DNA of 64,000 nt, from assembly GCA_903813345.2 (NCBI GenBank), contig CAIIXF020000008.1, positions 9,341 to 73,340 on the forward strand. The letters run 5' to 3'. The notes beneath the pieces were generated by a model that was given only the letters and a program-made list of their open reading frames with translations, was not told where the DNA came from and searched no databases. The translations under genes were made by a program, and so were the position numbers. Position 1 is the first letter of the stretch. The number at the start of each line of letters is the position of its first letter. The DNA comes from Owenia fusiformis (lineage: Eukaryota > Annelida > Polychaeta > Sabellida > Oweniidae). Below are positions 4,271-34,697 of this stretch, in pieces.

Positions 4271-4489
4271 ATAAATATGCTTACATTAACGTTTTGAGTC
4301 CTATAAAATATGGAAAAATACGAATGAAAATATTTATCACTATATTTTACACTAGTATATAAAGCTTACTCATGACAGATACTAGTAACTTTCCATGCCT
4401 CTCCGCATGGCCACAATTTCTCTGCAAACAGAGATTGGTTCGTCTCTAAATGTCACGCGCAGCTCTTTGAATCATCTGATTGCTAATAT

Positions 4490-4804
4490 TTAGTAAAGAA
4501 TGCTTCAATGGTTGATAATGTTTAAATATGCCACTCTTATTGCTAATCTTCTCGGGAAAATACTCCAACATTACTTTTGATATTATTTAATGCTCTGGTT
4601 GCTAATGTTTTAGTGGAAATACTCTAATGGTTGATAATGTCTAAGAAGAGAACACAATCGATGGTTAATAACGTTTAAAACTAAAGTTAATTGTAAATTA
4701 GAGATTGCTCTAAATAGTAGTTCATACATTGTAAAAACGTTCAAATGAAACATGTTGCAGAGAACGCTTTGCACTCGCTCGTTCGTTAGGTTGCAGAGAA
4801 TGTT
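4490..4804. repeat. Degenerate short repeats 3' of the first small gene
   Basis: Motifs like GGTTGATAATGTTTAAA and GCTAATNTT recur every 60 to 70 bases. Similar sequence lies 3' of the second small gene (about 23020-23123), including GTTGCAGAGAA. The shared flank suggests that the duplication that made the two genes included 3' sequence. Confidence 0.5.
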
Positions 4805-4881
4805 CTAATGTTTCATTATATTGTAGAGGGCACCCATCGTTGACAGGAGAATGACCATCACCAATGGCTCCAATGAGACAC
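4805..4881 (-). CDS. Paralogue A exon 4 (hydrophobic C-terminus)
   Basis: The acceptor GATTTTCAG precedes 77 bases ending in TAG at 4807-4805. The product VSLEPLVMVILLSTMG and the short end YNIMKH is hydrophobic. Length, phase and the residues L-E-P and M-K-H or F-K-H match exon 4 of paralogue B. Confidence 0.8.
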
Positions 4882-7800
4882 CTGAAAATCAAATCAGTAT
4901 TACCTTAGAAGGCATTGCATCAATCTTTAGTGTACCCAGGGGCATACACTCCCCTCCATAAGTTCGGTAATCTTAAATCACCCAATTGATTACATGTTAA
5001 AGTCATTTTATGTTTGAATTTTTATTTGAATAATCTGTTCAGAAAACTACTTTCTTGCAACAAGTACAATAGGTCAGAAATTGATGACAAATTTTGAAAT
5101 CAACATTCACATGCAAATCACTGTGAAATTGAAGTTTGCCGCAAGTCATATGACAGAGTATCCATCGTCGCTTGGAAAGTGCATAACTCCGTGCATATGG
5201 ACGCTCTCGGCATGAAACAAATAGGAAAACGTACGAAGCTGAGAGACCGTGCTAGCCGACCAAATATAGCCGCGAAGGATACAGTGGCCTAGACGGGTGC
5301 CTCGGGCCGTCGAACTCTACCGTCATTTGTCGAGTAGCTGGACGATCATTAACAAGTCCTGAGAATATATATAGTTTTATTAAGTATCCAGCTTTGTGGA
5401 GAAAAATATGGTTACTATGGAAATTCAAGTTTTGGGTAGGCGGATCAATATTGTAAATGCCGTTTTAACGAATCCTAAAAATTTTCTTTACTGTCAGAAA
5501 GAAGCATTCGATTTTTGAAGTAAAGATGATATTTTTGATAAAATGTAGAAGTATTCAATACTTTACCAATATTGCCTGCCATTGAGGGAAATAACCCTAA
5601 CCCTAACCAACTAACCCTAACCCTAATCACCGAAACCTGGATGAAAGGACGGTCTCTCAGCTTCGTACGTTTTCCTATTTGTTTCATGCCGAGAGCGTCC
5701 ATATGCACGGAGTTATGCACTTTCCAACCGACGATGGATACTCTGTCATAGAAAGAAACAAAAAACGATTGCACTAAAAAAACAAAAAATGTTAACAAAA
5801 AAACAGTTGTATAAATGATATATAAATAATTTCCGCATTGAATTCTTGTCAATCAGTCATCATTTCATAAAGGACCGTGTTTTTACAGAATGTTTTCAAT
5901 AATTAATGAATTCAATTCATCATATCGATACCAATCCTTTAAAGCTGCTAGTACAATAAGAACGAACATTACTCTTACCAGATATCACATGCGATTCTCT
6001 GCTCAAAAATATCATTGAATAAAAGAGCACACATTTAATTCAGATGCTTGCTTATTCATTTTGTGAAATCGTTCAATTTATCACGCACGTGGTGGCCTTT
6101 AAACGAGTCCAATCAATACCAATGCAAATGTGTTTAATGCTGCATTAGGTATAAGTCATAGTTTAAAGAACCGTCAAGAAAAACAATTCTATGTATTTTT
6201 CGTAAAGTTTTACCGGAACTACACTTATTTAGGAGACCCGCTGTTTTCGCTGCTGTTTGGATTGTAGTGAACTCTGGCACGGTATTCGGGACGCAACCAG
6301 TCTTCTCACGAACACAATTTGTGATGTTTTCGCCATTCTTCAAGAATCTGAAATAAATACATTTACATTTTATTAACAATTTAATACTGAGACAAGTCTG
6401 TATAGCTTAAGCATTTTGGTAAGCCAGGGCAGAACTAGCCATCCATCTCATTATCAAAAAAAACTCAATTCTCAACATTTTTTAATGAAATATATATAAT
6501 GAGTGACGTAGTAGGTCAGAATTCAAGAAGCAATCCACAGATTAACACCCCAGTCACATTTGTCGTATGGAGGCCGTGCGTCGACCGCAGATCAATTAAA
6601 TCAGTGAATTTCTGCGGCGAGCGTAGAAGAGCTACGCTCGCCTTGCGCTCTCTGTACGGCGTAATTTACATTTTGATATATGAAAAACATTGTAATGTAA
6701 TTGTATAAAGAATTTGCTAACTTTTATTGTTTAAAATATTATAAAACATGTATTTTGAAGAGATAATGACTTATAGCCCCGCAATATATATTGCCATATT
6801 TTCAAGAATGATGGAAATTTTGGATGCTTACTATATTTGTAACTTTTCTGTATGTATAGGGTGTCCTGAATTCAAATCTGCCAGATGCAATTTGTGTACT
6901 TTGCGGCATTAATTTGTACAGCCATTTCAATACGAGGGGTGATCAATAAGTAATGGACGCTTTTTTACATAAATGCTTTTTATAGACCAATCTCTTTAAT
7001 TTTTTCACCAGTGATACATCATTCAATTTTCTATCAACTCTGAAGATTTGGAGACAAAGCATGTAACATATTTTGATATATCTTTATTTCTGTGAAGGAG
7101 GTATAGGTACCCCGGGACCGACATAACGTCACACATTCTGAAGTCACTTATATAGCTCATTTAACGTGGAATGCAGTTTAATGCAAGTTGAACAAAATGA
7201 ACCATGATGGTTATGAATTCCACCATTTCGATACGCCATAATTGATTTTGAATATTTTGTCATCACTTTGTGGCATTCATGCCACCTTCATTTTACAGGG
7301 CCCTCTACAAAAGTTCCATTTAGTGCTACACACTCCTCATTAGCCTCATTAACCCAAAATTGAAAGACAAGGCCGAATCGTCATAACAATTGAAAGGCGA
7401 AGTTCCATTAATTTGAAGCTATTTTCACTCAGTTTTATCATAAAAAGGTGAAAATATGGCATAATTTAGAGAGTCATTCGAGAAAAACTTTCTAGTACTC
7501 GTACCTGTGCAAGATCGTCCATTCTTGACTCGCTTTGATAATATTTCTTTATCTCGTCTTCGACTCGATAAAGAGGAATTATCAAAGCTCATCAAGAATG
7601 GACGATCTTGCACAGGTACTCATACAAGAACCTCTATATCTTCCTCAATTTTTCACTGGTGTCCATTTCATTCCATTTTTCAACTTTGGAGATATCCAGT
7701 GCCACATTGTAATAAGTGCAATATGAGGAAAAATAAGCCCGCTTTTTGATCATGTGACTAAAAGTTATAACAATGTGGGAATAATGGGAAGATCACTAAC

Positions 7801-10800
7801 TAGTATACTCTGCAGGTAATTAACAAAGGAGATCACAAATCATGATACCATAAATGTAGTACAAACAAAAGAAAGCAGATTTGACATTATTTGTAACAAA
7901 AAAAAGTTCAGTCAGTGAACTGAATCGTTTATTGACCTGTTATACCCTTTTTACCTTGTCATTTACCTTTTAAAGATTTAGTGGATTTATCCAAAATATA
8001 TACAATTGTTCGCACTTAAGTTGTGTCGTTATGGCAACTACTTGACCAATCATGATCAAACTTGTCATAGCAACTAATTATATATATAGATACATAATCC
8101 CTGGAAATATGAATGTGATTGAATGCATACAGTGCGTATAAAAAACGCAACAGATTATTATCTCGGAAAGGTGCAAAACCAGTGATAACAGCATTGATTT
8201 CATTCAATGTACCATAAAACCACGTGTCTCCTCTTCACAATGATATATCATTCATTGATATTTAGTCATGATTGGGCAAGTAATCATTCCATTTGCATAG
8301 TGGGCCAAAATGAACTTGGGACCAAGTTATAAACATCGCAGAAGTCAGTGTATGGAGCCCGATGCAATATTGGAAGAAAACATAAAACCAATGCTGACCG
8401 CATCCTTTTCATTCAATGTACCAAAAAGCCAAATAACTCCTCTTTGCAATGGAATATCATTCATTCACAGGGAGTCATGGCTGTCCGAATAATCATTAAT
8501 TTTGCAAAGTGGGGCAAAATTCAGCTCGAACCCAAGTTTTAAACATTGCAAAAGTCAGTACAATGGGCATAGGGGCTATTGGAAGAAGGTGTTACAGGTG
8601 TGGCATAGACAGCAAAGGCTGTTCATACTCATACTCTTGCAAGAATACATCCTATACCCCTCCAAATAGTATAGTTTCCATATAGCTTTTGAAATCTCAT
8701 TAAATCTCGTTTTTCGTGATATTTTAAGAGACTTGCATAGTAGACCTTTAATAACCTACATTACCTTCGTTTAAATGGCATATCTGAATTCAGTGAAATA
8801 TTTTCTCCTGTAATAGCTTTGATTTACACAGTTATGTAATTTGAAAATTTTTCTATGACAATTAAAAAAAACTTGGGCCAAATGTCCATAGATGCAATAC
8901 TAAAATTCTTTAAAACCGTGGATTATTTGTATGTCAATCAACATTTTCATGTTTAATCCCAACATGTACATAAACAGGGTCATCATGTGGTATATCATTC
9001 AAGTTTTATACAGATTCAACTAACACACTTTGATAAATCATGAAATTAAGCCACTTTTCCAAGATTTTAGCATGTAAGTGAATGGAACTCTAGCCCAAGT
9101 TAAAAGCTGAATAAAAGATGGCAGCACGACATTTCATTGATTTTTCTGCTATTTAGAAACCACCACTTCCTTGCACATATAGATGCGCTCATCTGTCCAC
9201 GTCATGCATGGTTCAGCCCTGAGTCATCTGTGGGTCAAAGCAGAGAAAGCAGCCCATGGGCAATTCTTTCTCGAGGTTTTGCAATATCTGGTGGAGGAAT
9301 TGTGAGCACAGATACTCCAAAAGAAAAAGTCACAACAATTCAAGTCAGGAGAACTTCCATTGACACTTAGCCCTTGCACTGATTTTTGCTTTATCTAAAA
9401 CTTGGTCCAGAGCCGATTTTGACCCACTGTGCAAATGGAAGGATTTCTCACCCAACCTTTACCATATGTTAATGAATGACATATCATTGCAAAGAGGACA
9501 GACGTGGCTTTATTGATATAGTCATCACTAGTTTCGTGATTTTACGAGATAAATACTTGTTTCGTTTTTATACGCCCTGTATAACAGAAATTATTGATGA
9601 TTATCATAGTATTTCTTCATAAAAGTAGGCAGGGGTATATAAATGGCAATAATTCGAAGATGCTGAAGAACAAGACCCTATTATTTTCAAAATCAATGAG
9701 AAATGATATACAACACATAATTAGCATAAGTAGAAAAATGCAACACTGTAAGCAAAAACATGGTCCAAGCTAATCCAGTACCTTATCAGTCAAAATGGAA
9801 CAAGGGTCATATTCTGTAAAATATATTAGATAGGCAGAATAATGGTATACAAGACAATAATTGGTTTCCAATGCTCAATTGGCTTTTTATGATCGTATGT
9901 AGGTTACATCTATACACCCCGAGGTCGTTCGGCAATGTAGACCATGCCCTTAAAGCCAGGTATACACCAATGGGGCAAAATCCCACTTACCCCATCGAGT
10001 CCCATCTTGCCCCATCGAATCCCAATTTGCCCATTCGAATCCCACAAAGTCCCATGGGACCTTGATGACTTTGCCCCATCGTGCCCCATGGAGTCCCATC
10101 AAATCCCACAGTGCCCCATTGGTCTATGTCGGGCTTCACACAACACGTCATATGATCGAAAATCCCACCATGCCCCATGGAAAGAATGAACATGTTCATT
10201 CTCGATGGGACTCCGTGGGATTTTGCCCCATCTTGTCCCATCGAGTCCCACTGAGTCCCACATGGGACTTCATGGGACCTCATAAGAGCCTCGTGGGACT
10301 CGATAGGGCAAGATGGGGCAAAATCCCACGGAGTCCCATGGAGTCCCACGGACTTCATGGGACAAAATCCCAAAAGGTCCCACGAGGTCCCACGCAATGT
10401 TAAGTCTATGGAGGTCCCAACTTGCCCCATTGGTGTATACCGGGCTTAAGACAATTAAACAAATGACTAAATTTTGTGTAGTTTTGAATTTCAAACTCAA
10501 CAGTTTTTCGCTTATTTAATGTTATCCCCGGGCATCGATTTGCAAAGACTACATTCAAAATATACGATATGTGATGTATATTTCTTAGTTCTTCAACGAA
10601 ACCTACAAATATTTCGTTGCTGTTTTATCTTAATCGTAATTTCAATCACCGCCATCACTATTCAAACGAGTTACCTTGAAATATCAAGACGTTGTGCTAT
10701 TCTCACACTTATAAAACTCAATGTGACTGTCACTCACCATTTATAAAGCAGTAAAAAAAAGTTGGCCTAAGGGGTGTCAATTTTTTTCTAATTTCCCGGT

Positions 10801-13800
10801 GAATGTCCAATCTCGCATCATACGAATGAAAGGAGCACGTAAGATATATCAAGCCATTTTCAAAGGGCTATATCTTTTAGTTCGAAGAATAATTTAACCA
10901 CAAAATCAAATGGTTCTGTTAGATCCATGTCTTATCTTCAATAAATGACATAAGGATGATAATCAAGTTGATTGGATTATCTCTTAAGCTGTCCCTAATC
11001 CACCCATCCTCACCAATTTCCCCTAATTCTGATGGAATTTTCACCAAAAATACAGGCCTTTTTAATAATTTTTAGAGCAAAGTTGTATTGAACTTTCAGA
11101 CATGATTTAAACTGTAAAGGGGAAAAGTTAATTATGAACCTACTTTTTGTTATTTTTTCGTGATTTTTTCGTATTTTTTTCTGATATTATTAAGTGCTTC
11201 ATACTAATATTAATCAATTACAAAATAGAGGGCAGAAAAGTGTCATAAATACTTTGTTTATTACACTGTTTCAAACACTCGGAGAGTGACTTACTCAGCG
11301 TTACGATTTGCCTTAATCCTGTATTTTACCTTGTATTGTTTGTGTATAAAACAGTCATTCACGTAGAGCTATTTATATACTGAATAGTTCTATGTAATTA
11401 CATGTGCCTGGTTTTGGCTATTCAACCTAGATTCTTTGATTGAGCAGGCTGAAATGAATAAGTGTGAAAATAAAATGAATTACAGGGTGAGGCAAAAATG
11501 TCATCCAAAGAAACGTTATTAACTCATTCATCAAGTATGAGTTGAAATCATATCTAGTTAATTTTACCATGCAAAATCTTTTTGCATTTTACCATGTTTC
11601 ATGGGTCCATTCCTCAAGGTCACAATTCTATGGTCATTCTACAAATTTCAGCCTCGTCCCTTCAGGCAGACCTGCACTGGTCGGTCGGCACTGGTCGGTT
11701 GAGGTTGTAAGTTCACTGTCACAGAAATTGTTCTCCTACTTGTTGTAGGGGTTGACATTATCTCAGAGATAGCCCGTAGTCGTGAGATGAGGCTGGCATT
11801 TTGGACCATGTTTCGTTTTATAGCTATAAAGTCCCGACTATTTGGGCAGGGCCAATTAAACTTAGTAAAATGAAAGAACATTAAACAGGTTTTATTATGC
11901 GCAATAACACTTTAACAGATGCGGAATTTGTTTGGGCTACATTTTTGGCTCACTCCGTATTAGACTGCACTTTGGTAGTATTCATGATGTCATATGTTGG
12001 GTAAAAGGCGATGATTTACATACTTTTGATGGCAAATTCATTTTAATATGAATGAAATAGTGGCAGGTACTATTTATATTTAATGAGCCATAAAATAGTA
12101 GGTTAATCTGGCAGCTGTTAGTTGAATTCGCGAATACTATTTGTAATGGGGTTTCAAAGCCCGTGGTCACCTATGTAGTTTCTTCATCCTAGGTCAAATC
12201 CACTCAAGAATGGTGTTATATTAGATGCAGCATTTATTAATTTCTGGAATCACAGCACCCCTAAGCGTAATCATAATTCCGTCGATTAACCTACAGTATA
12301 GGCCTAGGGAAAACTAGTAGGAAGGCAGCTTATGAGTGCTCTCGATGTATATAAGCTTACTACTACTTTTACATAGGCCTATGGTCTAAAGATAAGTTTG
12401 GGATCCCTTATTAAAACCAAAACCTCTATTTCTAATTACAGCCCCTAAAAGCAACAACCCCGAACCAAGTGGCAGTCATTGAACCCAAAAGCATTTTTAT
12501 GTGCCAACCTATAATGAGAACCCCTTTAGTGAATAACAACCAGATAGTCGTCTAAGGTATAGCAACATGTTCAGTTTGTAATTTTATAGAAGGTCACTGA
12601 ATCCTCTAATCGTTCATTCAGTTATGGATAAAATATGAGTACTGGGTTTTATGAGAAATAATAGCAGATGGGCTTGGCCTGAGGCTATTAGTTCTCATAA
12701 GACCCATTTCGAATAGTTCATCTAACTTAAACCCCATACTGACTCTTATGAAGGGTAATTGACCCATGATCCAAGTTTAGAATTCTTTTGTATTAACTAT
12801 GAGATAAATGTGTAGAGAAGTGGGTTTAATTGGTTTAGCTTCAATGCATTGCATGTATCAGGCAAGATCAGTTAAAAATTGTATTTATTTTGTGTTTACA
12901 ATTCAACTATTGAGTGATTGAAAATGATTTAATAAGAACAGCTTCGGTGCACTGCATGTGACAGTCAAGGTGTTAATATTGAGCCAAACACTGTCAATCA
13001 TATTTTGTGCCACATTGGTCTTAGATAGCTGCAGTGTCCATTCTTCAAAAACAATACAACACGAATGCACTCCTCTTTTTTACTACTGTACATTCTTTAA
13101 GGTGAAAAAGGTCTTCAAATTGACCATTTTTTCAAAACGATCTTCGAGGTCTCAAAAATTCAAATCTGACTTTAGATTTTACAATTGACCTTCAATGACC
13201 TTCTCAAAGTAAGGAGGGTCTAAAAGGTATTTTTCAACTTGCTTCGAATTGACCGAATTTTCAAAATCACCTACAAGTTCTCAGAAGTCAAATCTGACTT
13301 TTGATTTGACATTTGACCTCTCAAGTTCAATAAGTTCTAAAAGGCATTTTTCAACTTGCTTCATATAACCATTTTCTTTTCAAGATTTGACTTGAATTAC
13401 AAGGTGGTGACATTTTGTAATGTTAATGCCTTGTTCTACATGTTGTTATTTCATGATTTTTTACGAAATATTGGCTTCGTACCTCATACCCATGTACGTG
13501 GGTGGTGATACAGTTTTTGAATGGTTCAATTTTTAAAGTTTTAAAACATTATTCAATCTTAATGCTATCTGAGGTATAAATACATTCATAGTATCCATAG
13601 ATGTGAAATTGGTCTTGTCAAAGAGAGATAGATATAGAGTCTTAAAATAAAGCCAGAATTGTTAATTTTACTTTTTCATTGATTGTCAAAATAGCGCCAT
13701 TCAAATGACTTTTTAATAGAGAAAATCCATTCTAAATAAGTTTTAAATATGTCAGGGTATTCTATGTATCATTTTATTTAATCACAGCATGAATACAGAT

Positions 13801-16660
13801 AATTGTAGTATCAGGAATAGTAAATTCACCCCAACACACGACAGTGTAATTTGTGCAGTTGTGCTTAACAGTGGATGATGATTCCATATTGAATGGGGGA
13901 GCAATCTAAATGTTGCAATATAGGTGACACCTTTTAGACGACTTCCTGAAATTTCCCAGCAAATAAAAAACGTTTTTGTGTAGATTGGTTCTATAGTGAA
14001 CGAGCATTTCAATTAGGCATTTTTTATCGAGGATAAAATAGCAAAGGCACAATTTTGCAATTCTGGCCTTATTTATGACTAGAAAAATGTTAGATCTATA
14101 AGACATACACGTAGGTCTACAAGTGCATTAATGCACCTACAATTCATATAATCTGAATAATCTGAAACGTTAGAATTGAACTCTTTAAAGAATGTATCAT
14201 GCCCCAAGTACGCGGGTACGTGGGTACGAGGTATAAGGTTTTTCATACAAAGCCCGAAGTATTGACTGAGAATATAGAGTGATCGAGCGACATTATCATT
14301 ATCATTATCATTGTCAAAGGGTTAAACCCATAGAATTAAACTGTTTATTCCATAAAAATCCCAATCAGCAAAAACAATCCAATTGAAATGAACAAAAAAT
14401 GCAACAAATGTTTGGCCAAACCATTGGAGAAAATTACTATTTGCATGTACTCTGTATACAGTGGTACCTGTATCAATACAAACTACATATATGATATAAC
14501 ACTATTCAAAAGATCATTTACAGCAAATCCTTTACAGAAGGCACTTTCGAAACACCCAATATGGTTGATGATAAAGAAAGATACACATGGGAAGAGTTAA
14601 TTCAAATAAGATGGTATTGAATCATGTTTGTTGAAACATCGCAAATATGTAATATTTCAAATATTCATTTACACGATACAATACAAATATATAAACAAGT
14701 ATTTCCTCTTATGTGTTTTACTAGGTGTTAAACACATTAATGTTTTACTGTACATACTTTACACGACACAGTCATGTTGTCATATCCATGCTCATTTCTA
14801 TAATACGCAATTATGCAACAATGAATACCCAGAGTATTAAGCACTCACCATGTACAATATATCATGCCATCTATGGAACATATATAACTCTATCTATAAA
14901 CATCATTGCATAAAATAGGGTACATCTAAATGTCGCTCTAAGTGACATCTTTTCATACACTTCACACTAAGGTCATGGCCTATGAGGTAAAAATGACAAA
15001 TGGATTATCAGATAATGCTTATCTCATTTAGATCATTTTTTTCTTTTTGGAAATCAATCATGTGACATAGCTCAATGTTTTCGTGCATTAATCTCATTAA
15101 AAAATTGCTACTTTTTGGTCAAAAATTCGGCCTAAAAAAGTTATTGTTTTTGGATTATCCTAATCCCAAAGTAATCACGTTTTCCTTTTTAGAGGTAGAT
15201 CATTCCTTACAATAAATTGTAATTTTACCATAAAAGCTGAAATAAAATGCTGCATTTTTGGTGAAAATTGTGTCAGAATTAGGGAAAATTGGTGAAGATG
15301 GTTGGATTAGGAACAGCTTAAGAGATAATCCATTCAACTTGATTATCATCCTACTGTCATTTATTGAAGACAAGACATGGATCTAACAGAACCATTTGTT
15401 TTTGTGGTTAAAGTATTCTTAGAACTAAAGTTATAGCCCTTTGAAAATGGCTTGCCATATCTTACGTGCCCCTTTCAGGCGATCCGTCTGCATGGGGTAT
15501 GGTACTCACAGACAAAGACTGGATAAGTTTCCCACTGATATTCCTTTCAGGCAACCCTTGGCATCAAGAATATTACAATTTTTGTCTTGACTGTAAACCA
15601 ACCCTGCCACTGCTGGAAGTTAAACAAAATCATTAAAGCAATATGATGATATATGAAAATACATCTCTCAGTCTAATACGATATGTCTACCATAGAGACA
15701 CTTCTTATAAAAATGGAAAAGGGCAAACATAGCTGTAAGACGAATCCCTTCGTATAATATATCTCTGTGTAAGCAAGTTTGAGTCAAATACCTGTATATT
15801 GTACATGGAATATCTCTGTAAGCAAATACGAAGTACATGAAACGTCTTTGTAAGTCAAATACCTTTTTTACACAAAATATCTATTTAAGTCAAGAAACCT
15901 CTTTGTCAGTCAAATAACATTGCACATGAAATATCTGTGTAAGCAAATTCCGAAGTACATGAAATGACTTGGTAAATGAAAATACCTTTTTACACGAAAT
16001 ATATTTTAGTCAAATACCTTTGGAATATATTTGTAAGTAAATACCGAAGTACATGAAACGTCTTTGTGAGTCAAATACCTTTGTACATGAAAAATCTTTG
16101 AAAGCACATATCAGTCACATATAATTGTACGTGAAATATATCTGCAAGCAAATACCGAAGTACATAGAATGTCTATGTAAGGCAAATACCTTTGAACGTG
16201 AAATATCGGTGTAGGTCAAATACCTTTGTACATGGAATATCTCTGTAAGCAAATACCGACGTAAATGAAATGTCTATGTACGTCAAATATATCTGTACAT
16301 AAAATACTTCTGTAAATACCCTCCCCCCATCTTGTAAAAGTCACAATACTGAATAGCATGGTAATGCGATATACGAAGCAATTCATGTCATAAAATGTCC
16401 AACACTTTGTAACATACTACAGAGCGTTAGTCCTCATGAAAACTGATAAATAAATTAGTCCTATTAAAATATATTGTCTATATTTTAATTTTCATCTTAA
16501 AATACGCGTTGTGAACACTCCCAAATTGTTACATCTGAGCATTACTTACAATTTACAGTTTTTCATCATTTACCAAGCAAACTTTTTTCAATGTCTTAAC
16601 TACATCTCACAAAAATGAAGTCAACTTACCTAACAATGAACATAAGACGGAGAAATGCAT
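4805..16660 (-). CDS. Small secreted six-cysteine protein with C-terminal anchor, paralogue A (4 exons)
   Basis: Joining 16660-16630, 15612-15510, 6347-6214 and 4881-4805 on the minus strand gives an open frame of 114 codons with GT-AG introns. Residues 1-19 form a signal peptide with a hydrophobic core, ending in YSQ. Six cysteines at about 23, 31, 44, 56, 63 and 87 have the spacing C-x7-C-x12-C-x11-C-x6-C-x23-C. NLSS and NITN are N-glycosylation sequons. After small residues SSG (88-90) comes a hydrophobic tail from about 91 to 114, which fits a GPI-attachment signal or a short membrane anchor. The neighbour at 23124-25463 shares all exon borders and phases. I do not recognise the family. 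Intron 2 is about 9.2 kb and full of mobile elements, whereas the paralogue's is 170 bp. Expression is not shown; all exons are intact. Confidence 0.8.
4945..5170 (+). mobile_element. Truncated arm of the TACACTCCCCTCC foldback family
   Basis: It starts TACACTCCCCTCCATAAG and then follows the complete copy at 20813-21693: GTTAAAG, TTTGAATTTTTATTT, then the ATTGATGA block. It ends near 5170 where a subtelomere-like unit begins. The opposite arm is missing. It lies in intron 3 of paralogue A. Confidence 0.7.
5150..5755. repeat. Near-perfect inverted repeat with telomeric run in the loop
   Basis: Segment 5150-5255 (ACAGAGTATCCATCGTCG to the GAGAGACCG block) is reverse-complemented at about 5650-5755 with only a few differences. 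The roughly 390-base spacer contains telomeric repeats at 5591-5627. The sequence lies in intron 3 of paralogue A. Confidence 0.8.
5591..5627 (-). repeat. Interstitial telomeric repeat in intron 3
   Basis: Two short blocks of CCCTAA separated by AACTAA form about five units in the same orientation as the run at 2711. This is not a chromosome end, because unique coding exons lie on both sides. Confidence 0.85.
6214..6347 (-). CDS. Paralogue A exon 3
   Basis: The acceptor TTATTTCAG and donor GTAAAA bound 134 bases, the same length as in paralogue B. It encodes FLKNGENITNC, REKTGC and the stretch to LLNKCSS, giving cysteines 4 to 6. Confidence 0.85.
7501..7619. mobile_element. 119-bp hairpin element
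   Basis: The sequence begins GTACCTGTGCAAGATCGTCC and ends with its reverse complement, and the arms of about 55 bases pair with few mismatches around a loop near 7556-7565. The overlapping open frames on both strands (all containing QDRPFL) are products of the palindrome, not genes. It lies in intron 2 of paralogue A. A target-site duplication is not clear. Confidence 0.75.
8128..9581. mobile_element. Tc1/mariner-type non-autonomous foldback element
   Basis: The ends are TACAGTGCGTATAAAAAACG and the inverse of TACAGGGCGTATAAAAACG, flanked by TA. Two direct internal copies of a roughly 210-bp block (about 8190-8395 and 8400-8600, with CATTCAATGTACCA and AAGTCAGT) are followed by an inverted third copy at about 9380-9530. 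No transposase is visible. It lies in intron 2 of paralogue A. Confidence 0.72.
9954..10445. mobile_element. TTAA-flanked element built of TGCCCCATCGAGTCCCA subrepeats
   Basis: TTAA lies at 9950-9953 and 10446-10449. Inside are near-identical termini GGTATACACCAATGGGGCAA in inverted orientation. The interior is dozens of short, both-strand copies of a roughly 17 to 20-base motif mixing TGCCCCAT and GAGTCCCA. TTAA targets are typical of piggyBac and Kolobok transposons; no transposase is present. The open frames here (rich in SPMESH or WDSMG) are reading artefacts. Confidence 0.78.
13108..13390 (+). repeat. Two tandem copies of a roughly 140-bp unit
   Basis: The units share TTCAAATTGACC, TCAAATCTGACTTT and CTAAAAGG(T/C)ATTTTTCAACTTGC in the same order. 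They are diverged and not coding. Confidence 0.65.
13473..14254. mobile_element. GGCTTTG-family inverted-repeat element, long copy
   Basis: The left end GGCTTCGTACCTCATACCCA and the right end (inverse, finishing ATACAAAGCC) form the termini. The flanks are CGAAATATT and CGAAGTATT, a 9-bp duplication with one mismatch. Inner sequence matches the copy at 52945-53442, including TTATGACTAGA. No transposase is seen. A 9-bp duplication is typical of Mutator-like elements; the assignment is inference. Confidence 0.65.
15510..15612 (-). CDS. Paralogue A exon 2
   Basis: The acceptor CTTCCAG precedes 33 full codons, beginning after a split Ala codon and ending TCTTTGTCT before the donor GTGAGT. It encodes the end of the signal peptide and the first three cysteines (NCNILDAKGC and SSLC). 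It lacks the Thr/Ala tract of paralogue B. A foldback element abuts about 13 bases past the donor. Confidence 0.8.
15720..16330 (+). repeat. Degenerate minisatellite, about 47-bp half-units
   Basis: GTACATGAAATATCT, GTAAGCAAATACCGAAGTAC and GTCTTTGTAAGTCAAATACC alternate through the stretch, with the GAAGTAC landmark recurring about every 92 to 118 bases. It lies in intron 1 of paralogue A. Confidence 0.7.
16630..16660 (-). CDS. Paralogue A exon 1 (start of signal peptide)
   Basis: ATG at 16660-16658 encodes MHFSVLCSLL plus one base, followed by the donor GTAAGT. The last exon bases and the first ten intron bases are the same as in paralogue B (TTGTTAG or GTGTTAG, then GTAAGTTGAC). The phase is 1. 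Confidence 0.78.
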
Positions 16661-16737
16661 ATTATTCACTCTGTTTTCCAAATCTACGTTTTACGAGATT
16701 CTGCTTTCTCACACCCTTTACAAAAAGACCTTTTACG

Positions 16738-16751
16738 ACTGGTTTTAAGGC
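16738..16751 (-). promoter_or_regulatory. Candidate core promoter motif, paralogue A
   Basis: On the minus strand the motif reads GCCTTAAAACCAGT, 78 to 91 bases upstream of the ATG. Nearly the same motif precedes paralogue B. TTAAAA is a plausible TATA-type box; the function is inferred from conservation and position. Confidence 0.5.
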
Positions 16752-17565
16752 TGCCAATAAAAATGTTGGAGCATTTGGTACCTATCTTATAAGTACACGC
16801 GTGTTCACCTATTGGAATGATGCTATACATAGATGTGGGTATACATCAGTTTATGAGGTACATTATCCCCAGGTACTGTATTTTTAATTATACTTTAGGT
16901 TATTAAACATTGATGTGCATATAATTAATAGTAAGTACATATGTCCCATGTATTGAGTGCAATGTGTGCATATTGTCTAGTTAAGCAAAACATGTTTTCG
17001 TCGTTTATACAATTTTATCACTTTGGTTATTCAATATTTTCGTTGTAGGATTTCCCTGAATGTAAACAGTAAGATTTTCATAGTCATCGGCAACTTTTGG
17101 GATTTCCAGACCCAAAATCAACATTAAATAAATTGGAACTCGACGCCAAATTTGAAGTGTCCAATAGTTCTGTTACTGTTAAGGCTATCTGGAAAATATT
17201 ATGAATTCTAACATTTTAAATGTTTAAATCTTCAGTAACATAGATTTGAGAATATAGAACAACAAGGAGGCATTTTACACTCTCTAGTTCTGTATTTGTT
17301 GCCCATTTTACACTCTCTAGGACTGTATTTGTTAGATATAGGTATAGACATGATATAGATTATAGAACCCCGTTGAAACAGGTCAAGCCCCTTTGAAGTA
17401 GAGAATGGTTAAACACTTACAGAATAGAATATGATTTAAACCTTAATATTCAAAAATAGATTGGTTTTAAGGCCTAAACTCACTAAGTTAATAATTCTGT
17501 CTAAGAGACATCATTGACTTCTGTCTAGGTAACTTACTTTCCAAGATTTGATGTATCCACCCCAT

Positions 17566-17781
17566 GCAGACAGATCGCGTAAAATTACATACGTATGATG
17601 CGAGACTCGACATTCACCGGGAAATATGTTGCCACACATGAAGAAAAATAATTTTTAGGCCTTAAAGCAAATAATAATAAATCATGGATCTATCCATGGG
17701 TGACAAATTATTTCAGGTTTCCTGGTGAATGTCGAGTCTCACATCATACGTTTGTAATTTTAGTCGATCTGTCAGCATGAG
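17566..17781. mobile_element. Hairpin element with CCATGCAGAC ends
   Basis: The arm 17566-17627 (CATACGTATGATGCGAG, CGACATTCACCGGGAAA) is mirrored at about 17716-17781. The same end sequence sits at 15476-15497 and part of it at 10787-10820. It is a short non-autonomous element. Confidence 0.7.
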
Positions 17782-18046
17782 GTGATATCGGGTGTCCCAA
17801 AAAGTGAACCACCAAGGAATGGTTGACTATATGGTTTATGGACATATTTGACCTGTTTAACAAATCTGTTGTTGTTAAGGCATGACTTGTTTATAACGAT
17901 ATACGTATTGATATCAGCAGTCTAATGTATAGAACAGGATGAGCCAAGAAAATGTAACCCAAACAAATGTGAATAACTCTCTCTTCCAACATTGATTTAA
18001 AATCAAATTTGGCACAATTGAACCTCGCTCAATTTTCTTTAATTCC

Positions 18047-18160
18047 TACCCTTTGCATCCGTTCAACTTCACTTCTTAAAAGAGACCTTCGTCTTTACTA
18101 TTTAGGACGGGGCTGCTGAACTGCTATATCGTCTATACCAGGCGGTTTAAATTTCACAGA
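18047..18160 (-). mobile_element. Deleted copy of the TACCCT element family
   Basis: It starts TACCCTTTGCATCCGTTCAA and continues CTTCACTTCTTAAAAGAGA, the reverse complement of the right end of the element at 60051-60427. It then jumps to GGGGCTGCTGAACTG, matching that element's other end. The promoter-like middle is missing. Confidence 0.65.
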
Positions 18161-18279
18161 ATTAGCGATGAAATGGACCCATGAAATGAGAACCAGGTGA
18201 TTAAAGTGTTGATGCGACGATTACGTCCGCCATTTGTGATAACGGTGCCTAACTTTATTGCTGTGATAGTTGTGTTAAA

Positions 18280-19150
18280 CTTGATGCTATTGCTGGTACA
18301 AGTGGCTAACGAACCTCTTATTCACCTTGATGTTATTGCTAGTACAGGTGGCTAACGAACCTCTAATTCAACTTGATGCTATTGCTGGTGCAGGTGGCTA
18401 ACGAACCTCTAATTCAACTTGATGTTATTGCTGGTACAGGTGGCTAACGAACCTCTTAATCACCTTGATGTTATTGCTAGTACAGGTGGCTAACGAACCT
18501 CTAATTCAACTTGATGCTATTGCTGGTACAGGTGGCTAACGAACCTCTTATTCACCTTGATGTTATTGCTGGTACAGGTGGCTAACGAACCTGTAATTCA
18601 ACTTGATGTTATTGCTGGTACAGGTGGCTAAAGAACCTCTAATTCAACTTGATGCTATTGCTGGTACAGGTGGCTAACGAACCTCTTATTCACCTTGATG
18701 TTATTGCTAGTACAGGTGGCTAACAAACCTGTAATTCAACTTGATGTTATTGCTGGTACAGGTGGCTAAAGAACCTCTTATTCAACTTGATGTTATTGCT
18801 GGTGCAGGTGGCTAACGAACCTCTAATTCAACTTGATGCTATTGCTGGTGCAGGTGGCTAACAAACCTCTAATTCAACTTGATGCTATTGCTGGTACAGT
18901 TGGCTAACAAACCTCTAATTCAACTTGATGCTATTGCTGGTGCAGGTGGCTAACGAACCTCTTATTCACCTTGATGTTATTGCTAGTACAGGTGGCTAAC
19001 GAACCTCTAATTCAACTTGATGCTATTGCTGGTGCAGGTGGCTAACGAACCTCTCTTATTCACCTTGATGTTATTGCTAGTACAGGTGGCTAACGAACCT
19101 CTAATTCAACTTGATGTTATTGCTGGTACAGGTGGCTAAAGAACCTCTAA
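18280..19150 (+). repeat. 46-bp minisatellite, about 19 copies
   Basis: The unit runs from CTTGATGCTATTGCTGG through ACAGGTGGCTAACGAACC to CTCTAATTCAA. Units differ by a few alternating bases (GCTATT or GTTATT, TATTCAC or AATTCAA), which mark sub-families in a roughly alternating order. It lies between the paralogous genes. No open frame runs through it. Confidence 0.92.
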
Positions 19151-19719
19151 GAACATTTTAATAAAGTTGAAATATTGTCAGCATCTATTTTATAAATATA
19201 CTTGGCTTTCCTTGGAGGAATTGATAGAAAGTCATAATATCTGATGTCTGTCATGTGAGAAAATGATTTAAACTTAAAGTTCACCATTCTGGTCTCGAGT
19301 CATAATCAACTCGTCTATTGAAAGCTCGTGATTTCACAAACAATACATTGAGTACAGTGCCTAAAGCCTTGTGAGTACAAAAAATTAATTTGTATTTTCA
19401 TTTGGAGGTTCGAAGAAATAACTTTCAATAACAACTCATGTCAGAGTGTTACATTCTCTTGGCCTAATCAAAATTAATAACTATAATATTAGAGACAACC
19501 AGGGCATTAAAAACCAGCCAGCAAAATTACCCGACGTCTACTCGGGAGTTTTTTGTACGTGAATGAATAATTACCAGTTTGTTCAGTGATTTTATTTTCA
19601 ATAGGTTTTTACAAAGTAATAAGTATTTGTTTATGACCTTATGAGCATAATACTGGGATGAGCTGTGCTGAGTATTAATTAAGGTACTTGAATGGTAGTA
19701 TATACATATGGAACGTTTT

Positions 19720-20493
19720 CTGCTTCATTATTCGTATTTTACTATATGTATTCGTAAATTGAACTTCTGCATTTATTGAATGCACATATATGTTCGTAAC
19801 TGTAGTATTTTCATTCATTTTTTGTGTTTTCTGTTCGTGAATCTAATTTGTTTCGTTAATACGTATATGTACGTGTTTTATGCTGAAATACATTCAAAAG
19901 TCCTTATAAGCATTTGTAAGTGACACATTTTATATCCGTAGGTTAGACAAATAAATTTAAGTTCATTTTGTACCTTTATCATTGTTTCTGCAAATATATT
20001 AGTTTAATATCTACGAACTGAATGTCAAATTTATCAAAGAATAAGTACTAGCTTTGGCATTTTATTTTTTAATTGTCGAATTTATTTTCGTAACAAGGTA
20101 AAATGTTTTCGTAAAAGTGCACATTTATTGTTCGTAAATATTGTCATTTGTATTCGTAAATTGCACTTATATATTCGTTTTTAAATGGTTCATTGAGATC
20201 ACGTGATCATTCTTAACGAGACATGGTCAACCCATTGTCAAAGTCATCACCCCCTCTCCCACACACACCTAAAACTCTCGTGTCACGTGACCTATGCCTG
20301 GATACTAGCATTTTATATTCGTTAACCTTGACACATTTGTATTCGTAAACTCACATTTATATTCGTAAATTTTCATTTTATTATTCGCTAATGTACGAAT
20401 ATTTCTTTGCTTTCTGCAATAATTTATGGGTAATATGCAAGATTATTATTCGTGAAAATAAATTTAATAAATAACAAACGAATAATGAAGCAG
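19720..20493. mobile_element. Inverted-repeat element rich in TTCGTAA motifs
   Basis: The ends are CTGCTTCATTATTCGTA and its inverse at 20477-20493. Inside, (T)ATTCGTAAA-type motifs recur many times on both strands, mainly in the outer thirds. No coding sequence is visible. The repeated internal motif could be a binding site for the mobilising transposase; that is inference. Confidence 0.65.
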
Positions 20494-20812
20494 TTATGAC
20501 GCTATATTTATACAACTATAAATATATAGCATCAGAAATTTTATTTTACCTGGTCCTTTGACAGCTCGAAAAGGCTGTTTTGTCAGCTCCGTGCTTACAA
20601 TTATACAGGTGACTGTTCTCAAGGACCTAATGCAGAAAACATATGCCAGAATTTCTTACTATCATGGTGACAGGTTTTTATACGTATGTTTAAATCATTT
20701 CGTCATGTTTAATGTTTAAATCTACATTCTTTGGCATTATATATGTGCAACGAGTATTTACCCTGGAATGCCATGTACATCTAAGGTCATACCATGTAGT
20801 GGACATATGTAG

Positions 20813-21693
20813 TACACTCCCCTCCATAAGTTTGGCAACCTTTTTTCCCCATTGAACTACGTGTTAAAGCCTCTTTACGTTTGAATTTTTATTTACTTAA
20901 CCGCCGATGAAATAACTTATACTATTGATGGAAACGTAACTTGACTTTATTTCCAATACCTCCAAATTTTCTCAATTTTTTTCCTCAATTACATTAGGTC
21001 GAAAATTGATGATAAATTTGATGAATTTTTGAAAATCGTCATTCCCATGTAATCCAACGGGAAATGGAGGGTTCGGGGCAAATCAGAAATCAGGATATCT
21101 TTTCAGTGAAAGATTCAGCAAAAAAAAAATTTTATATAGAAAATTGAATTGTCTAGCTTTTATGAACACTAAGTGTTTAGTTTATTTGATGAATATTAAA
21201 GTTACAGCGCTTCCAAGTCATTTTAGAAAATAATTTTTCGCCTCCTGTGTTATTTCAATGGGAGAGGTTTTTTGAAAAACAATTTTGACTTTAAAGCCTA
21301 ATAACTTTGTTGAACCTGAAGAAACATATCAATTTTTTGTTAAATAAAGTTAGCAAATTCAATTGCCTGCCTAACTCGTATTTTTGCAAGTACTCGGATG
21401 GATGGATATTCTGTCATATGACTTGCGGCAAACCTACCATTTCCCATTGGTTAACATGGGAATGTCGATTTTCAAAAGTTCATCAAATATATCATCAATT
21501 GTCGACCTATTGTAATTGAGGAAAAAAATTGAGAAAAATTTGGAGGTATTGGAATTAAAGTCAAATTTCGTTTCCATCAACAGTATAAGTATTTTCATCG
21601 CAGGTTAAGTAAATAAAAATTCAAAGGTAAAGAGGCTTTAACACGTACTTCAATAGGGGGAAAAAGGTTGCCAAACTTATGGAGGGAAGTGTA
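20813..21693. mobile_element. TACACTCCCCTCC foldback element, complete copy
   Basis: Both ends read TAC ACT(C/T)CCCTCCATAAG inward and continue TTTGGCAACCTTTTTC. The arms of about 270 bases (20813-21075, 21430-21693) stay alignable throughout, with shared blocks such as GGAGGTATTGGAA and TTCCCATTGG. The central part has no credible gene. Fragments of the family occur at 4945, and end-like sequence occurs in the minisatellite at 25985-27117. Confidence 0.82.
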
Positions 21694-22360
21694 TGTGTTC
21701 AACTGATGACGAAAAATTGTAGAAAAATATGATTTTGCTGTCGAGATATCGCGGTTTTAAAAGTAAGTACGCATGTAAAAATGCAGTAATATGCCGTGAT
21801 GTACAGTATCTGACGTCGTATCATATACGTTTTACTTATCTCTTAATTTGGACATAAAATATATATTTCAACTATAATTCTAGGCCAATTCCGCCTGCTA
21901 GAACATCTTAGTAACGATTCTAACCATCCAAGGGAATTGATAGTGGTCCAATATTACCTTTATTGTCCAGTCTATGGCTCACGTGATTATGTTAATGAGA
22001 AAACCCCATTTGTTTCCCGGCAGAACAATCAAAACTGACGCGGACAATCTTCGTTTTAACTGAACGGTTCGTGACCGAAATTCACTAAACTATAGAAAAT
22101 ATGTTACGTTATAAGGATAGATTGTTTTTACTTACCAATCATCAACATGTGCTGACATATTCAGCCCTGGATTTTATGTCCAAAGGGGGGTAACACACAT
22201 CGTCAGAATAAATTTTAAGTTCTCACACCCTATGTTTAATTGGCTAATTCAAATCGGATGCGGTAAAATGGATTTGTAATTCTGGGCCGGTGTGAAAGAA
22301 ATGATGGTCCCCAGGGATTATGGTCCCCCCCCCTTTTAAAGGCCCTTACTGGCCCTGATT

Positions 22361-22569
22361 TAGTTCAACAAGTTAAACCCAATACCACGGCTTTTATTTA
22401 TTAATCTGAATGTTCTTGTTGCCGTGATTGGGTTTAACATCCGTGCTATGCTCTCATTGGTAGCAAATTGCATCAAGGGCCGAATAGGCACGGATGTTAT
22501 ACCTAGGGCTGACCACAAGATATGTCAGATAAGAAATAAGGCCCAGACTAGGTTTAACTTGTTGAACTA
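22361..22569. mobile_element. 209-bp MITE with perfect 9-bp target duplication
   Basis: The ends are TAGTTCAACAAGTTAAACC and the exact inverse. The flanks 22352-22360 and 22570-22578 are both GCCCTGATT. Two further inverted pairs lie inside: CCCAATACCACGGC with GCCGTGATTGGG, and AACATCCGTGC with GCACGGATGTT. A 9-bp duplication is the hallmark of Mutator-like elements; the family assignment is inference. Confidence 0.88.
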
Positions 22570-22578
22570 GCCCTGATT

Positions 22579-23123
22579 GTGTATAAGATGATAAAGGAAA
22601 GAGCACAAAGAGGTCAACATATAAATCAATGGAGAGTAGGACCATAAATTAATAGGACCTCCTACCCTTCTACACCTGGATTATTTGGGATTTTTTAATG
22701 TTATTCTCCGAACGAACGATTCGTTCAGTTCTAGCGTAACGCGGGGACTCTAAAACAGGGCAACTGGAGAATAACTCTATTTGTGTCTCTCTGTACGTTC
22801 AGCCATAGGTCGGACTGTGGTAAATATCGAACGATAGCTTTTTGTGTTTTTAAAAATAACTAAACATAATATCAAACACACATATTTTAGGAAGAGAGCA
22901 TTTTTAGAATCATGTATTCTATGTTCAGTATATGTATATATTGTATTGACATATATTTTCTTATATCTTGTGTATCAATTGTATTGTTCACTGTCAGGTT
23001 GAAGTTCACAGAGGCGAGGCTTGCGCTCAAATGTTAGGCTCGATGACGTTGCAGAGAAGGCTCTAACATTTGATAATATTATATTAAAATGCTCCAATAT
23101 TCAATAGTGTTGCAAATAACGCT
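22579..23123. other. Intergenic stretch without recognised gene
   Basis: It is mostly AT-rich. I see only a short palindrome CGAACGAACGATTCGTTC near 22710 and, from about 23020, the short 3'-flank repeats shared with paralogue A. Confidence 0.5.
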
Positions 23124-23200
23124 CTAATGTTTGAACATATTATATACGACACAAAGGGCTGACAGGAAAATGGTCATCACAACTGGTTCCAAGAAGACAC
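23124..23200 (-). CDS. Paralogue B exon 4
   Basis: The acceptor GTTTTTCAG precedes 77 bases ending in TAG. The product VFLEPVVMTIFLSALCVVYN and its short end MFKH is hydrophobic. Confidence 0.82.
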
Positions 23201-25463
23201 CTGAAAAACAAATCAATATTATGTTACTATTTTAAACGCCAAAAAGAATACATACATGTTATGGTAAAATCTCGAATGACAGAATGACTTAAGGGGGCAC
23301 AGACATTTGTTGAATCGATAGATAAATCATATTTTAAATAGAAAACTACTTTTAGAGAAAAATAATTTGAACTATGTATTCGATACAATGTCTCATGTTT
23401 CTTTCATACTTTCGGTTTTAAATTGACTTCCTTTGCGTTGACCATCGCATACTGTTTTATTACATGTTTCAAAACAGACAGAAAAACATTAAGAAAAAAT
23501 ACAATTGATCGAGCTAGGCTAGATAAAATTCATTTCAAATAAAGATGGTAGGAAAGGATTATAGAAGTCTACCATTGCTGCCATCTATATATTGACGCAA
23601 AACATATGCATTTTTACCTGCATTGCACTGGTTTAGGAAACCCGCTGTCTTCGCCGCAGATTGGATTGTAGTAAACTCTGGAATAGTACTTGGCACGCAA
23701 CCTGTCTTTTCACGTACACAATTTGTGATATTTTCACCATTGTCCAAAAATCTGAAATAAATAAAACAATTTAGATTCAGAAAATCAGCCATGAGAAATT
23801 AGATAAAAATGTATTTAGATAAAGTTTAGAAGTAGGCTAGTAACATAAGGTAGAAAGTATTTTCATATTCATGAAATTAAATATTATAAAACACCCCCTG
23901 CTAAGTTAAGCATATACTCACAAGCAAAGACTAGTCAAGTTTCCAACTGAGAACCCCTGCAGACAGCCCTTTGCGTCAAGTATGTTACAAGATGGAGCTT
24001 CAGTTGCAGCTTCAGTCGCAGCTTCAGTCGCAGCTTCAGTGGTGGTGGTGGTTGTGGCATTTTGCCCATAAGCCAGCCCAACAAATGCTGGAGATGAAAG
24101 AAGGTTAATTACTAGTTATGGTTGTGGGTTCGATTCCCATCGAGAAAGAAGCTGAGTTTGGGAATTGGTCAAATTGTCAACAGTTTTGAATTCTTTAATG
24201 GTTTAACCTTCTTCTTCACTTATATAAATTGTGAATAAGGATCTGCTTTTTAAGAATTGTTCGGTGAACATTTCACTCAATAAAATTGTCATTTAACACA
24301 TCGTAGTAACTATCGATATTGGACACAATTCGAACATCTGTGTAATTCAAAAACTTGCAAGTTCAAACAGTTAAGTGTTAATTCCGAATGGAATATTCAG
24401 TTGAAGCAAGTATTCAAATAATATGCATCTCTGCAAATGCGAATAGAAATAAATCATTTAATTAAAACAAATTCAGTTAACATTACTATAGCGTCATGAC
24501 GTGACCTAAACATGATGAAATAACCTTTTTAGCCCACTGAAAAATGGTTAAAGTAGGAGCTTAGGAAAGGTCCCTAAACAGAATCTTTTGAATTTTTCAG
24601 AAAATATGCCCATTATATAGCTCTAAATAATACAATCGTTGAATAATGTGATATCATCCGTAGAAAAATAAAAAAAATGAAAAAAATGAATTGAAAAGCG
24701 ATCTATTTTCCTGTTTATGACCACAATTTTTGTTTCAGACTTTTTCTCAAATTTCAAAGATTGTATCATTTAGAGCAATATATTGGGTACATTTTCTGAA
24801 AAATTCAAAAGATGCTATTCAGTGACCTTTCTTAAGGGGCTATTTTTAGCTATTATTCAGTCACATTTTTAGCGGGCTGAAAAAAATTATATTTCATCAT
24901 GTTTAGGGTCATTCTGACCATGTAAACTGTGATCCTGGTCCTGTAAATGAAATGTGAAACTAGTTGAATTGACTGGAGATCAAAACAGAACTCTTTGTTC
25001 AAAAACTGTCTAAAAATACAGCATGTTTTGTCACTTCCTGATTTGTCATTCCCTGTTAAGTACCATGGCACCTTAACTGAACACAAAAGTGTGTATTTTG
25101 GGGTATCAGATGCTTTTATTTCCATGACCCTTTTACATTTTACGATAACTAAGTTCCTCGATCTGTAACAACTCTAAATTAGAAACTCGTATACAGGTAT
25201 GTTCTTCCATGTTTCGATCCTCTATATTTAGATATTAAAATATATTTATATTTAAATATGGATATATACAAATACATGTACAGTCAAATTATTCATGTGT
25301 TTTAGCAAACATAGTTTAGTCAAGTTCAACTCTACAAATCTGTTACATTCAACCATGTATCAATATATTCCAAAAAGATAAAATAGCCTTTAATTTATTG
25401 AAAAAAATAACAAGTATTTTAAGTCAACTTACCTAACACTGTGCACAAAATAAAAGAATTCAT
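23124..25463 (-). CDS. Small secreted six-cysteine protein with Thr/Ala-rich stalk, paralogue B (4 exons)
   Basis: Joining 25463-25433, 24087-23922, 23751-23618 and 23200-23124 on the minus strand gives 135 codons with all introns GT-AG. Residues 1-19 are a signal peptide ending in YGQ. Residues about 20-43 are a Thr/Ala/Glu tract: six Thr, then four TEA(A) repeats made of a 12-base DNA repeat. This resembles an O-glycosylated stalk and is absent from paralogue A. Cysteines at about 44, 52, 65, 77, 84 and 108 have exactly the spacing of paralogue A. NLTS and NITN are sequons. After NAG (109-111) a hydrophobic tail runs to the end, fitting a GPI signal or short anchor. Intron phases 1, 2 and 1 equal those of paralogue A. 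The family is unrecognised; a cell-surface role is inferred. Confidence 0.85.
23618..23751 (-). CDS. Paralogue B exon 3
   Basis: The acceptor TTATTTCAG and donor GTAAAA bound 134 bases encoding FLDNGENITNC through FLNQCNA. Most differences from paralogue A are conservative (N/S, V/I, T/S, L/F). Confidence 0.87.
23922..24087 (-). CDS. Paralogue B exon 2 with TEAA repeats
   Basis: The acceptor CATCTCCAG precedes 166 bases ending TTTGCTT before GTGAGT. It encodes the signal-peptide end, the Thr/Ala tract and the first three cysteines. The 63 extra bases relative to paralogue A keep the frame. Confidence 0.85.
25433..25463 (-). CDS. Paralogue B exon 1
   Basis: The ATG at 25463-25461 encodes MNSFILCTVL and one base before the donor GTAAGT. 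Length (31 bases) and phase are as in paralogue A. Confidence 0.8.
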
Positions 25464-25984: not shown

Positions 25985-27117
25985 ATTGGGTCAATTCTAA
26001 TGCCCTGTGCATATGCACTCCCTCCCGCCCCCATAAGTTTGGGTCAATTCTAATGCCCTGTGCATATGCACTCCCTCCCCCCATACGTTTGGGCCAATTC
26101 TAATGCCCTGTGCATATGCACTCCCTCCCCCCATACGTTTGGGCCAATTCTAATGTCCCGTGCATATGCACTCCCTCCCCCATACGTTTGGGTCAATTCT
26201 AATGTCCCGTGCATATGCACTCCCTCCCCCCATACGTTTGGGCCAATTCTAATGCCCTGTGCATATGCACTCCCTCCCCCCATACGTTTGGGCCAATTCT
26301 AATGTCCCGTGCATATGCACTCCCTCCCCCCATACGTTTGGGCCAATTCTAATGTCCCGTGCATATGCACTCCCTCCCCCCCATAAGTTTGGGTCAATTC
26401 TAATGTCCCGTGCATATGCACTCCCCCCCCCATAAGTTTGGGTCAATTCTAATGCCCTGTGCATATGCACTCCCTCCCCCCCATAAGTTTGGGTCAATTC
26501 TAATGTCCCGTGCATATGCACTCCCTCCCCCCATACGTTTGGGCCAATTCTAATGCCCTGTGCATATGCACTCTCCCCCTATAAGTTTGGGTCAATTCTA
26601 ATGCCCTGTGCATATGCACTCCCTCCCCCCCATAAGTTTGGGCCAATTCTAATGTCCCGTGCATATGCACTCCCTCCCCGCATACGTTTGGGCCAATTCT
26701 AATGTCCCGTGCATATGCACTCCCTCCCCGCATACGTTTGGGCCAATTCTAATGTCCCGTGCATATGCACTCCCTCCCCCATAAGTTTGGGCCAATTCTA
26801 ATGCCCTGTGCATATGCACTCCCTCCCCCCATAAGTTTGGGTCAATTCTAATGTCCCGTGCATATGCACTCCCCCCTCCCCCCCATAAGTTTGGGTCAAT
26901 TCTAATGTCCCGTGCATATGCACTCCCCCCTCCCCCCCCCCATACGTTTGGGTCAATTCTAATGCCCTGTGCATATGCACTCCCTCCCCCCCCATAAGTT
27001 TGGGTCAATTCTAATGTCCCGTGCATATGCACTCCCCCCTCCCCCCATAAGTTTGGGCCAATTCTAATGTCCCGTGCATATGCACCCCCCCCCCCCTCCC
27101 CCCATAAGTTTGGCAAC
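25985..27117. repeat. 50-bp minisatellite, about 22 copies
   Basis: The unit is TTGGG(T/C)CAATTCTAATG, (CCCTG or TCCCG), TGCATATGCACTCCCTCC, a C-run and ATA(A/C)GT. The C-run varies, so unit length runs from 49 to over 60. GTGCATATGCAC is a perfect palindrome in each unit. The last unit ends CCATAAGTTTGGCAACC, which matches the terminal repeat of the element at 20813. The open frames of 77 to 189 codons here (AYARDIRIGPN type) are repeat artefacts. Confidence 0.92.
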
Positions 27118-34000: not shown

Positions 34001-34697
34001 GGTACATGTTAATACAGCATACAGCCACCCATACCTGTTTCATATGTGCATTGTGCGATACTGATACGTGTAAATACAGCATACAGCCATGCATACCTGT
34101 TTCATATGTGCATTTTGCGATGCTGGTACATGTTAATACAGCATACAGCCATGCATACCTGTTTCATATGTGCATTTTGCGATGCTGGTACATGTAAATA
34201 CAGCATACAGCCATGCATACCTGTTTCATATGTGCATTTTGCGATGCTGGTACATGTAAATACAGCATACAGCCATGCATACCTGTTTCATATGTGCATT
34301 TTGCGATGCTGGTACATGTAAATACAGCATACAGCCATGCATACCTGTTTCATATGTGCATTGTGCGATGCTGGTACATGTAAATACAGCATACAGCCAT
34401 GCATACCTGTTTCATATGTGCATTGTGCGATGCTGGTACATGCAAATACAGCATACAGCCATGCATACCTGTTTCATATGTGCATTTTGCGATGCTGGTA
34501 CATGTAAATACAGCATACAGCCATGCATACCTGTTTCATATGTGCATTTTGCGATCTGGTACATGTAAATACAGCATACAGCCATGCATATATGTTTCAT
34601 ATGTGCATTGTGCGATGCTGGTACATGTAAATACAGCATACAGCCATGCATATATGTTTCATATGTGCATTGTACGATGCTGGTATATGTAAATACT
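31016..34697 (+). repeat. 62-bp satellite array, about 59 copies
   Basis: The unit reads GCGATGCTGGTACATGTAAA, TACAGCATACAGCCATGCAT, ACCTGTTTCATATGTGCATTGT. Variants (CACCCAT or GCATACC, ACATT or TTGTG, GATACATG or GGTACATG) define higher-order order. One block of six units (373 bp, including a 63-bp unit) is present twice in a row at about 32590-33335. Each unit carries TACATGTA, ATGCAT and CATATG palindromes. The unit has almost no stop codons in any frame, so the many 60 to 172-codon open frames (HTCFICALCDAG type) are artefacts. Confidence 0.95.

Follow-up and report, generated by a model that had tools for sequence, protein, structure and literature searches.

A 64,000-nucleotide (nt) stretch of the Owenia fusiformis genome, referred to here as the window, contains two genes, A and B, which with a third paralogue, C, located elsewhere on the same chromosome, make up a three-gene family, probably of small secreted cell-surface proteins, each displaying a six-cysteine helical domain tethered by a glycosylphosphatidylinositol (GPI) anchor and acting as a co-receptor or short-range ligand. 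Taken by itself, this last element, the role, is proposed tentatively. The window corresponds to C8:9341-73340, near the end of a 39.3-Mb chromosome, and the genome searches reported below covered the 498-Mb, 525-contig assembly, with matches on the 12 chromosome-scale contigs (C1 to C12). Domain searches overlook numerous small, secreted orphan proteins in the genomes of annelids and other spiralians; with three genes, a common intron anatomy, a constrained ectodomain and a drifting tail, the present family is a clean and well-supported orphan case.

Gene structure and family members

The original prediction described two four-exon genes on the same strand, encoding 114 and 135 residues, and exons re-derived from the sequence agree with it, the strand being minus for both genes (Table 1). 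All introns are GT-AG and fall in phases 1, 2 and 1 (1017, 9162 and 1332 nt in A; 1345, 170 and 417 nt in B), and an in-frame stop lies upstream of the ATG in each gene. The equal lengths claimed for exon 3 and exon 4 (134 and 77 nt) were recovered along with the shared phases and the cysteine spacing C-x7-C-x12-C-x11-C-x6-C-x23-C, which is exact in A and in B. Exon 2 differs by 63 nt between the two genes, mostly because of a 12-bp tandem repeat in B. The two-gene observation is confirmed as real.

Table 1. Coordinates of genes A and B in the window, and loci of the second six-cysteine family in the genome
Feature	Position	Strand	Content
Gene A	16660-4805	-	four exons, 114 aa
Gene A exon 1, 31 nt	16630..16660	-	ATG and first part of signal peptide; ends in phase 1
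Gene A exon 2, 103 nt	15510..15612	-	remaining signal peptide, Cys1-Cys3
Gene A exon 3, 134 nt	6214..6347	-	Cys4-Cys6, NIT glycosylation sequon, start of GPI-site region (CSSG)
Gene A exon 4, 77 nt	4805..4881	-	hydrophobic C-terminal GPI-type signal, stop codon
Gene B	25463-23124	-	four exons, 135 aa
Gene B exon 1, 31 nt	25433..25463	-	ATG and first part of signal peptide
Gene B exon 2, 166 nt	23922..24087	-	remaining signal peptide, Thr/Glu-Ala-rich mucin-like N-terminal extension, Cys1-Cys3
Gene B 12-bp tandem repeat, 3.8 copies	23996..24040	-	codes TEAA repeats
Gene B exon 3, 134 nt	23618..23751	-	Cys4-Cys6, NIT sequon, start of GPI-site region (CNAG)
Gene B exon 4, 77 nt	23124..23200	-	hydrophobic C-terminal GPI-type signal, stop codon
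Second family, L058	C12:36461496
Second family, L059	C5:19049576
Second family, L060	C7:14806923
Second family, L061	C6:13694389

Searching the genome with the A domain revealed the third paralogue, C, at C8:13498784-13494269, 13.5 million bases from A and B. Its exon 2 was located 3.0 kb upstream of the copy first found, and exons 1, 3 and 4 complete a gene of 112 residues whose four exons measure 34, 94, 134 and 77 nt, again in phases 1, 2 and 1. Exon 4 was chosen among candidates whose length, acceptor context and G-x-x-L-x-P start were compared with those of A and B, which the chosen exon matches. Gene C likewise encodes a signal peptide at the start and a hydrophobic tail at the end. Its first cysteine spacing is x8 rather than x7, so the x7 interval is not fixed across the family. 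Identity is 69% between A and B and 44% between A and C. Genome searches with C and with fragments of A detected no fourth member, in what was a rough search that leaves more distant members possible, and since only three genes are detected, the family is not a transposable element. Weak matches at C10:30832104 and C7:271616 lack the six-cysteine pattern and were dismissed, the one at C7:271616 looking sushi-type.

Repetitive sequence is found around and within the window genes. Three tandem arrays, built of 46-, 50- and 62-bp units, occupy positions 18278-19150, 25986-27096 and 31013-34696, the first between A and B and the second just upstream of B. Palindromic repeats, probably of the type of miniature inverted-repeat transposable elements, occur at about 20817-21700 and 5150-5750, the latter within intron 3 of gene A; one of them starts with acactcccctccataagttt and finishes in its near complement. 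Directly downstream of the A and B stops, at 4450-4805 and 23000-23124, are repeated motifs resembling ttgcagagaa / gctctaatgttt, which may belong to 3' untranslated regions.

Divergence and selection

The tandem arrangement claimed for A and B is right, but it is old, with synonymous divergence (dS) of about 1 or more and introns that can no longer be aligned. BLASTN of B against A returns just three aligned blocks, corresponding to exon 4, exon 3 and the 3' half of exon 2. Across the domain and tail, differences between A and B number 18, 5 and 40 at codon positions 1, 2 and 3, respectively (p=3e-7). For the 65-residue cysteine domain, nonsynonymous divergence (dN) is 0.08 and dS is 1.47, giving a dN/dS of 0.05 (95% bootstrap interval 0.017-0.13), and for the C-terminal tail dN/dS is 0.69. 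When neutral evolution was simulated at the A/B divergence, none of 20,000 runs retained 56 of 65 identical residues, and 75% acquired a stop. The cysteine domain is under strong purifying selection and the tail is relaxed. Such a difference is to be expected of a tail that serves as a cleaved signal, in which composition matters and sequence does not.

Protein anatomy and predicted membrane attachment

At the protein level, A, B and C have the layout of small GPI-anchored proteins at both ends. Their N-termini are hydrophobic (11-residue Kyte-Doolittle means of 2.6-2.8), and the putative signal cleavage residues VYS|Q, AYG|Q and ALS|C, read by eye, fit the -3/-1 rule. Cys6 is followed by small residues (SSG in A, NAG in B, NTG in C), then by a short spacer in which L-x-P is conserved, and the site contexts CSSGVSLEP.., CNAGVFLEP.. 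and CNTGMNLQP.. each run into a hydrophobic end with almost nothing after it. In A and B the tail's longest uncharged run, counting the Pro at its head, is 18 residues, and only K-H follows. An N-I-T sequon between Cys3 and Cys4 is also kept in all three. AlphaFold was run twice, once with A by itself and once with B, A being included in the alignment (1-2 sequences), and four short helices are common to both models, at domain residues of about 3-12, 18-27, 29-40 and 46-59. Together with the gene models and the third paralogue, the layout of the tail supports the suggestion that these are small surface proteins with a GPI-type C-terminus; A, B and C are probably secreted, helical and GPI-anchored, with three predicted disulfides. 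GPI anchoring is predicted as the most economical reading of a conserved secreted domain joined to a freely drifting hydrophobic tail.

Following this reading, the signal peptide would be removed in the endoplasmic reticulum, and the domain of about 65 residues would take up a fold of some four short helices, with three disulfides holding it together. An N-glycan could be added to the N-I-T that all three proteins keep between Cys3 and Cys4. A GPI anchor would take the place of about 25 C-terminal residues, its attachment point being the small residues that follow Cys6 (SSG, NAG or NTG), so that the tethered domain might present its conserved surface to a putative partner. The gene B protein would add a short mucin-like Thr/Glu-Ala extension before the domain.

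Several points weigh against GPI-tethered display. The gene models of A, B and C are derived from genomic sequence. The GPI signal was judged by rules and the signal peptide by hydrophobicity and the -3/-1 rule, the AlphaFold models are of low confidence (mean predicted local distance difference test score, pLDDT, of 61 for A and 57 for B with A), and the binding partner is putative. Moreover, K-H, with which A and B end, is less than typical of a GPI signal, so a short single-pass anchor is possible. It could accordingly be proposed that the proteins span the membrane once, as short type I proteins, or are made soluble by alternative splicing, since A and B finish with K-H after about 17 hydrophobic residues and a minimal stop-transfer sequence is conceivable. 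However, the hydrophobic stretch is short for a membrane span and there is essentially no cytoplasmic tail; in addition, small residues stand at the expected GPI site in A, B and C, and the tail sequence is relaxed. We consider attachment of this kind, or a soluble form, unlikely.

Searches for known relatives

Sequence searches of Pfam, NCBIfam and PDB returned nothing significant for the window family, in keeping with the original claim that it lacks a catalogued domain. A Pfam match to Herpeto_peptide (E 0.012), below the cut-off, covers residues 14-40, reaching from the signal peptide into Cys1-Cys2, and was put down to chance. No relative was found among the prokaryote and viral contigs searched, and literature searches found the family described nowhere. 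For both structural models, neither Foldseek (best E 2.5) nor VIA-align (best Z 3.3 and 4.2) returned a significant fold. The RECK CC domain, present in the first Foldseek list (E 7.5), was dismissed because its cysteine pattern differs.

Two other families of small cysteine-rich domains were considered by name. Ly6/uPAR (PF00021) proteins are likewise small, disulfide-stapled, GPI-anchored surface domains. Ly6 domains adopt a three-finger beta fold with 8-10 cysteines, whereas the window family has six cysteines and is predicted to be helical (pLDDT only 57-61); Pfam gave no PF00021 match for A, B or C. The DUF19 (PF01579), or T20D4.11-like, domain of nematodes is also small, secreted and cysteine-rich. 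Its profile is longer than the window domain, at 157 positions, and it matched neither A, B nor C in Pfam nor anything genome-wide at E up to 1, in searches in which the control genomes were also without a match.

Resemblance to the RGM N-domain

The claim that no known domain fits the cysteine spacing was too strong: cysteine order and several spacings resemble those of the N-domain of repulsive guidance molecules (RGM), and what stands is that searches for residue-level homology found none. The RGM_N model (PF06535) finds the RGM of this genome (E 3.9e-13), in which the cysteines are arranged as C-x4-C-x25-C-x8-C-x7-C-x21-C, compared with intervals of 7, 12, 11, 6 and 23 in the window family. 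Both have six cysteines in the same order, similar last three spacings, a helical bundle (predicted at low confidence in the window family) and a GPI anchor (likewise predicted). They differ in the second spacing, 25 in RGM and 12 in the window family, and in the RGM C-domain, which is absent from the window family, whose complete proteins are 112-135 aa long and pass from Cys6 straight into the tail. Cysteine-anchored shuffling gave z of 0.5 to 2.2 against RGM, compared with about 13 when A was paired with its true paralogue C. The RGM_N cut-off of 24.2 bits was not reached, none of the three proteins matching the model even at E up to 10, and the window genes are absent from the RGM_N matches of the genome; an hhalign comparison between the window family and the RGM of this genome gave E 0.59. 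Structural comparison placed the RGMC N-domain (4ui1_D) first in the Foldseek list for one model and fifth for the other (E about 6), and RGM is in neither VIA-align table. The shared order of cysteines, some of the spacings and the predicted helices are a lead, not homology.

A second secreted six-cysteine family was found in the genome, comprising four unlinked genes (Table 1), two of which were returned by RGM_N at sub-threshold scores and the rest by further search. Its spacing is C-x7-C-x14-C-x8-C-x7-C-x24-C, with a total length of 66 compared with 65 in the window family. In contrast to the window family, it is soluble, with a stop soon after Cys6, its six cysteines are in one exon, and it has sub-threshold similarity to RGM_N (E 9.6e-4, below the score cut-off; best PDB matches are RGMs, at E 0.35 to 0.69). 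Comparison of the two families revealed no residue similarity (hhalign E 0.33; cysteine-anchored shuffle z of -0.2 to 1.2).

In RGM, the N-domain forms a bundle of three helices, contains three disulfides and binds BMP/GDF ligands (PMC7354924). GDF5 signalling was attenuated by the soluble N-domains of RGMA and RGMB, but full-length RGMs anchored in the membrane were more efficient at this (PMC7354924), which illustrates how a tethered module can work. It could be proposed that the window family is a divergent stand-alone relative of this domain, a GPI-anchored six-cysteine helical bundle binding a TGF-beta/BMP-type ligand. Cysteine order, the later spacings, the predicted helices and the presence of 4ui1_D in both Foldseek lists point in that direction, but the hhalign value, the low shuffle z, the lack of any Pfam or PDB match to RGM, the VIA-align tables, the second spacing and the missing C-domain all argue against it, making such a relationship rather improbable. 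The fuller proposal, a previously undescribed GPI-displayed six-cysteine helical domain family of an early-branching annelid that corresponds to a free-standing RGM N-domain and, lacking the remainder of RGM, modulates TGF-beta/BMP-type signalling, is very doubtful. If the resemblance is structural, the suggestion would be that a growth-factor-binding module occurs as a minimal surface protein too; if it is coincidental, this is an ordinary orphan surface family deserving annotation.

Suggested role in defence or gamete recognition

Small, cysteine-rich, surface-exposed proteins, a tandem pair near a chromosome end and a variable mucin-like repeat in B would suit fast-evolving defence or gamete-recognition proteins, as originally suggested, but the domain dN/dS of 0.05 between A and B and a family of three detectable members, with no expanded cluster, speak against the proteins taking part in an arms race, be it immune or gamete-related, leaving the suggestion unsupported by selection and a long shot, even though a comparison of paralogues leaves room for adaptive change within one orthologue.

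Other features of the window

Near the chromosome end, a GC-rich tandem repeat of 250 bp and a short ACCCTA (telomere-type) run occupy positions 1-675 and 2714-2740 and have no Rfam match. At 37150-47233, pieces of the long interspersed nuclear element type encode an endonuclease (Exo_endo_phos) and a reverse transcriptase (RVT_1), apparently interrupted. This element has at least 150 related copies genome-wide, some of them about 98% identical.

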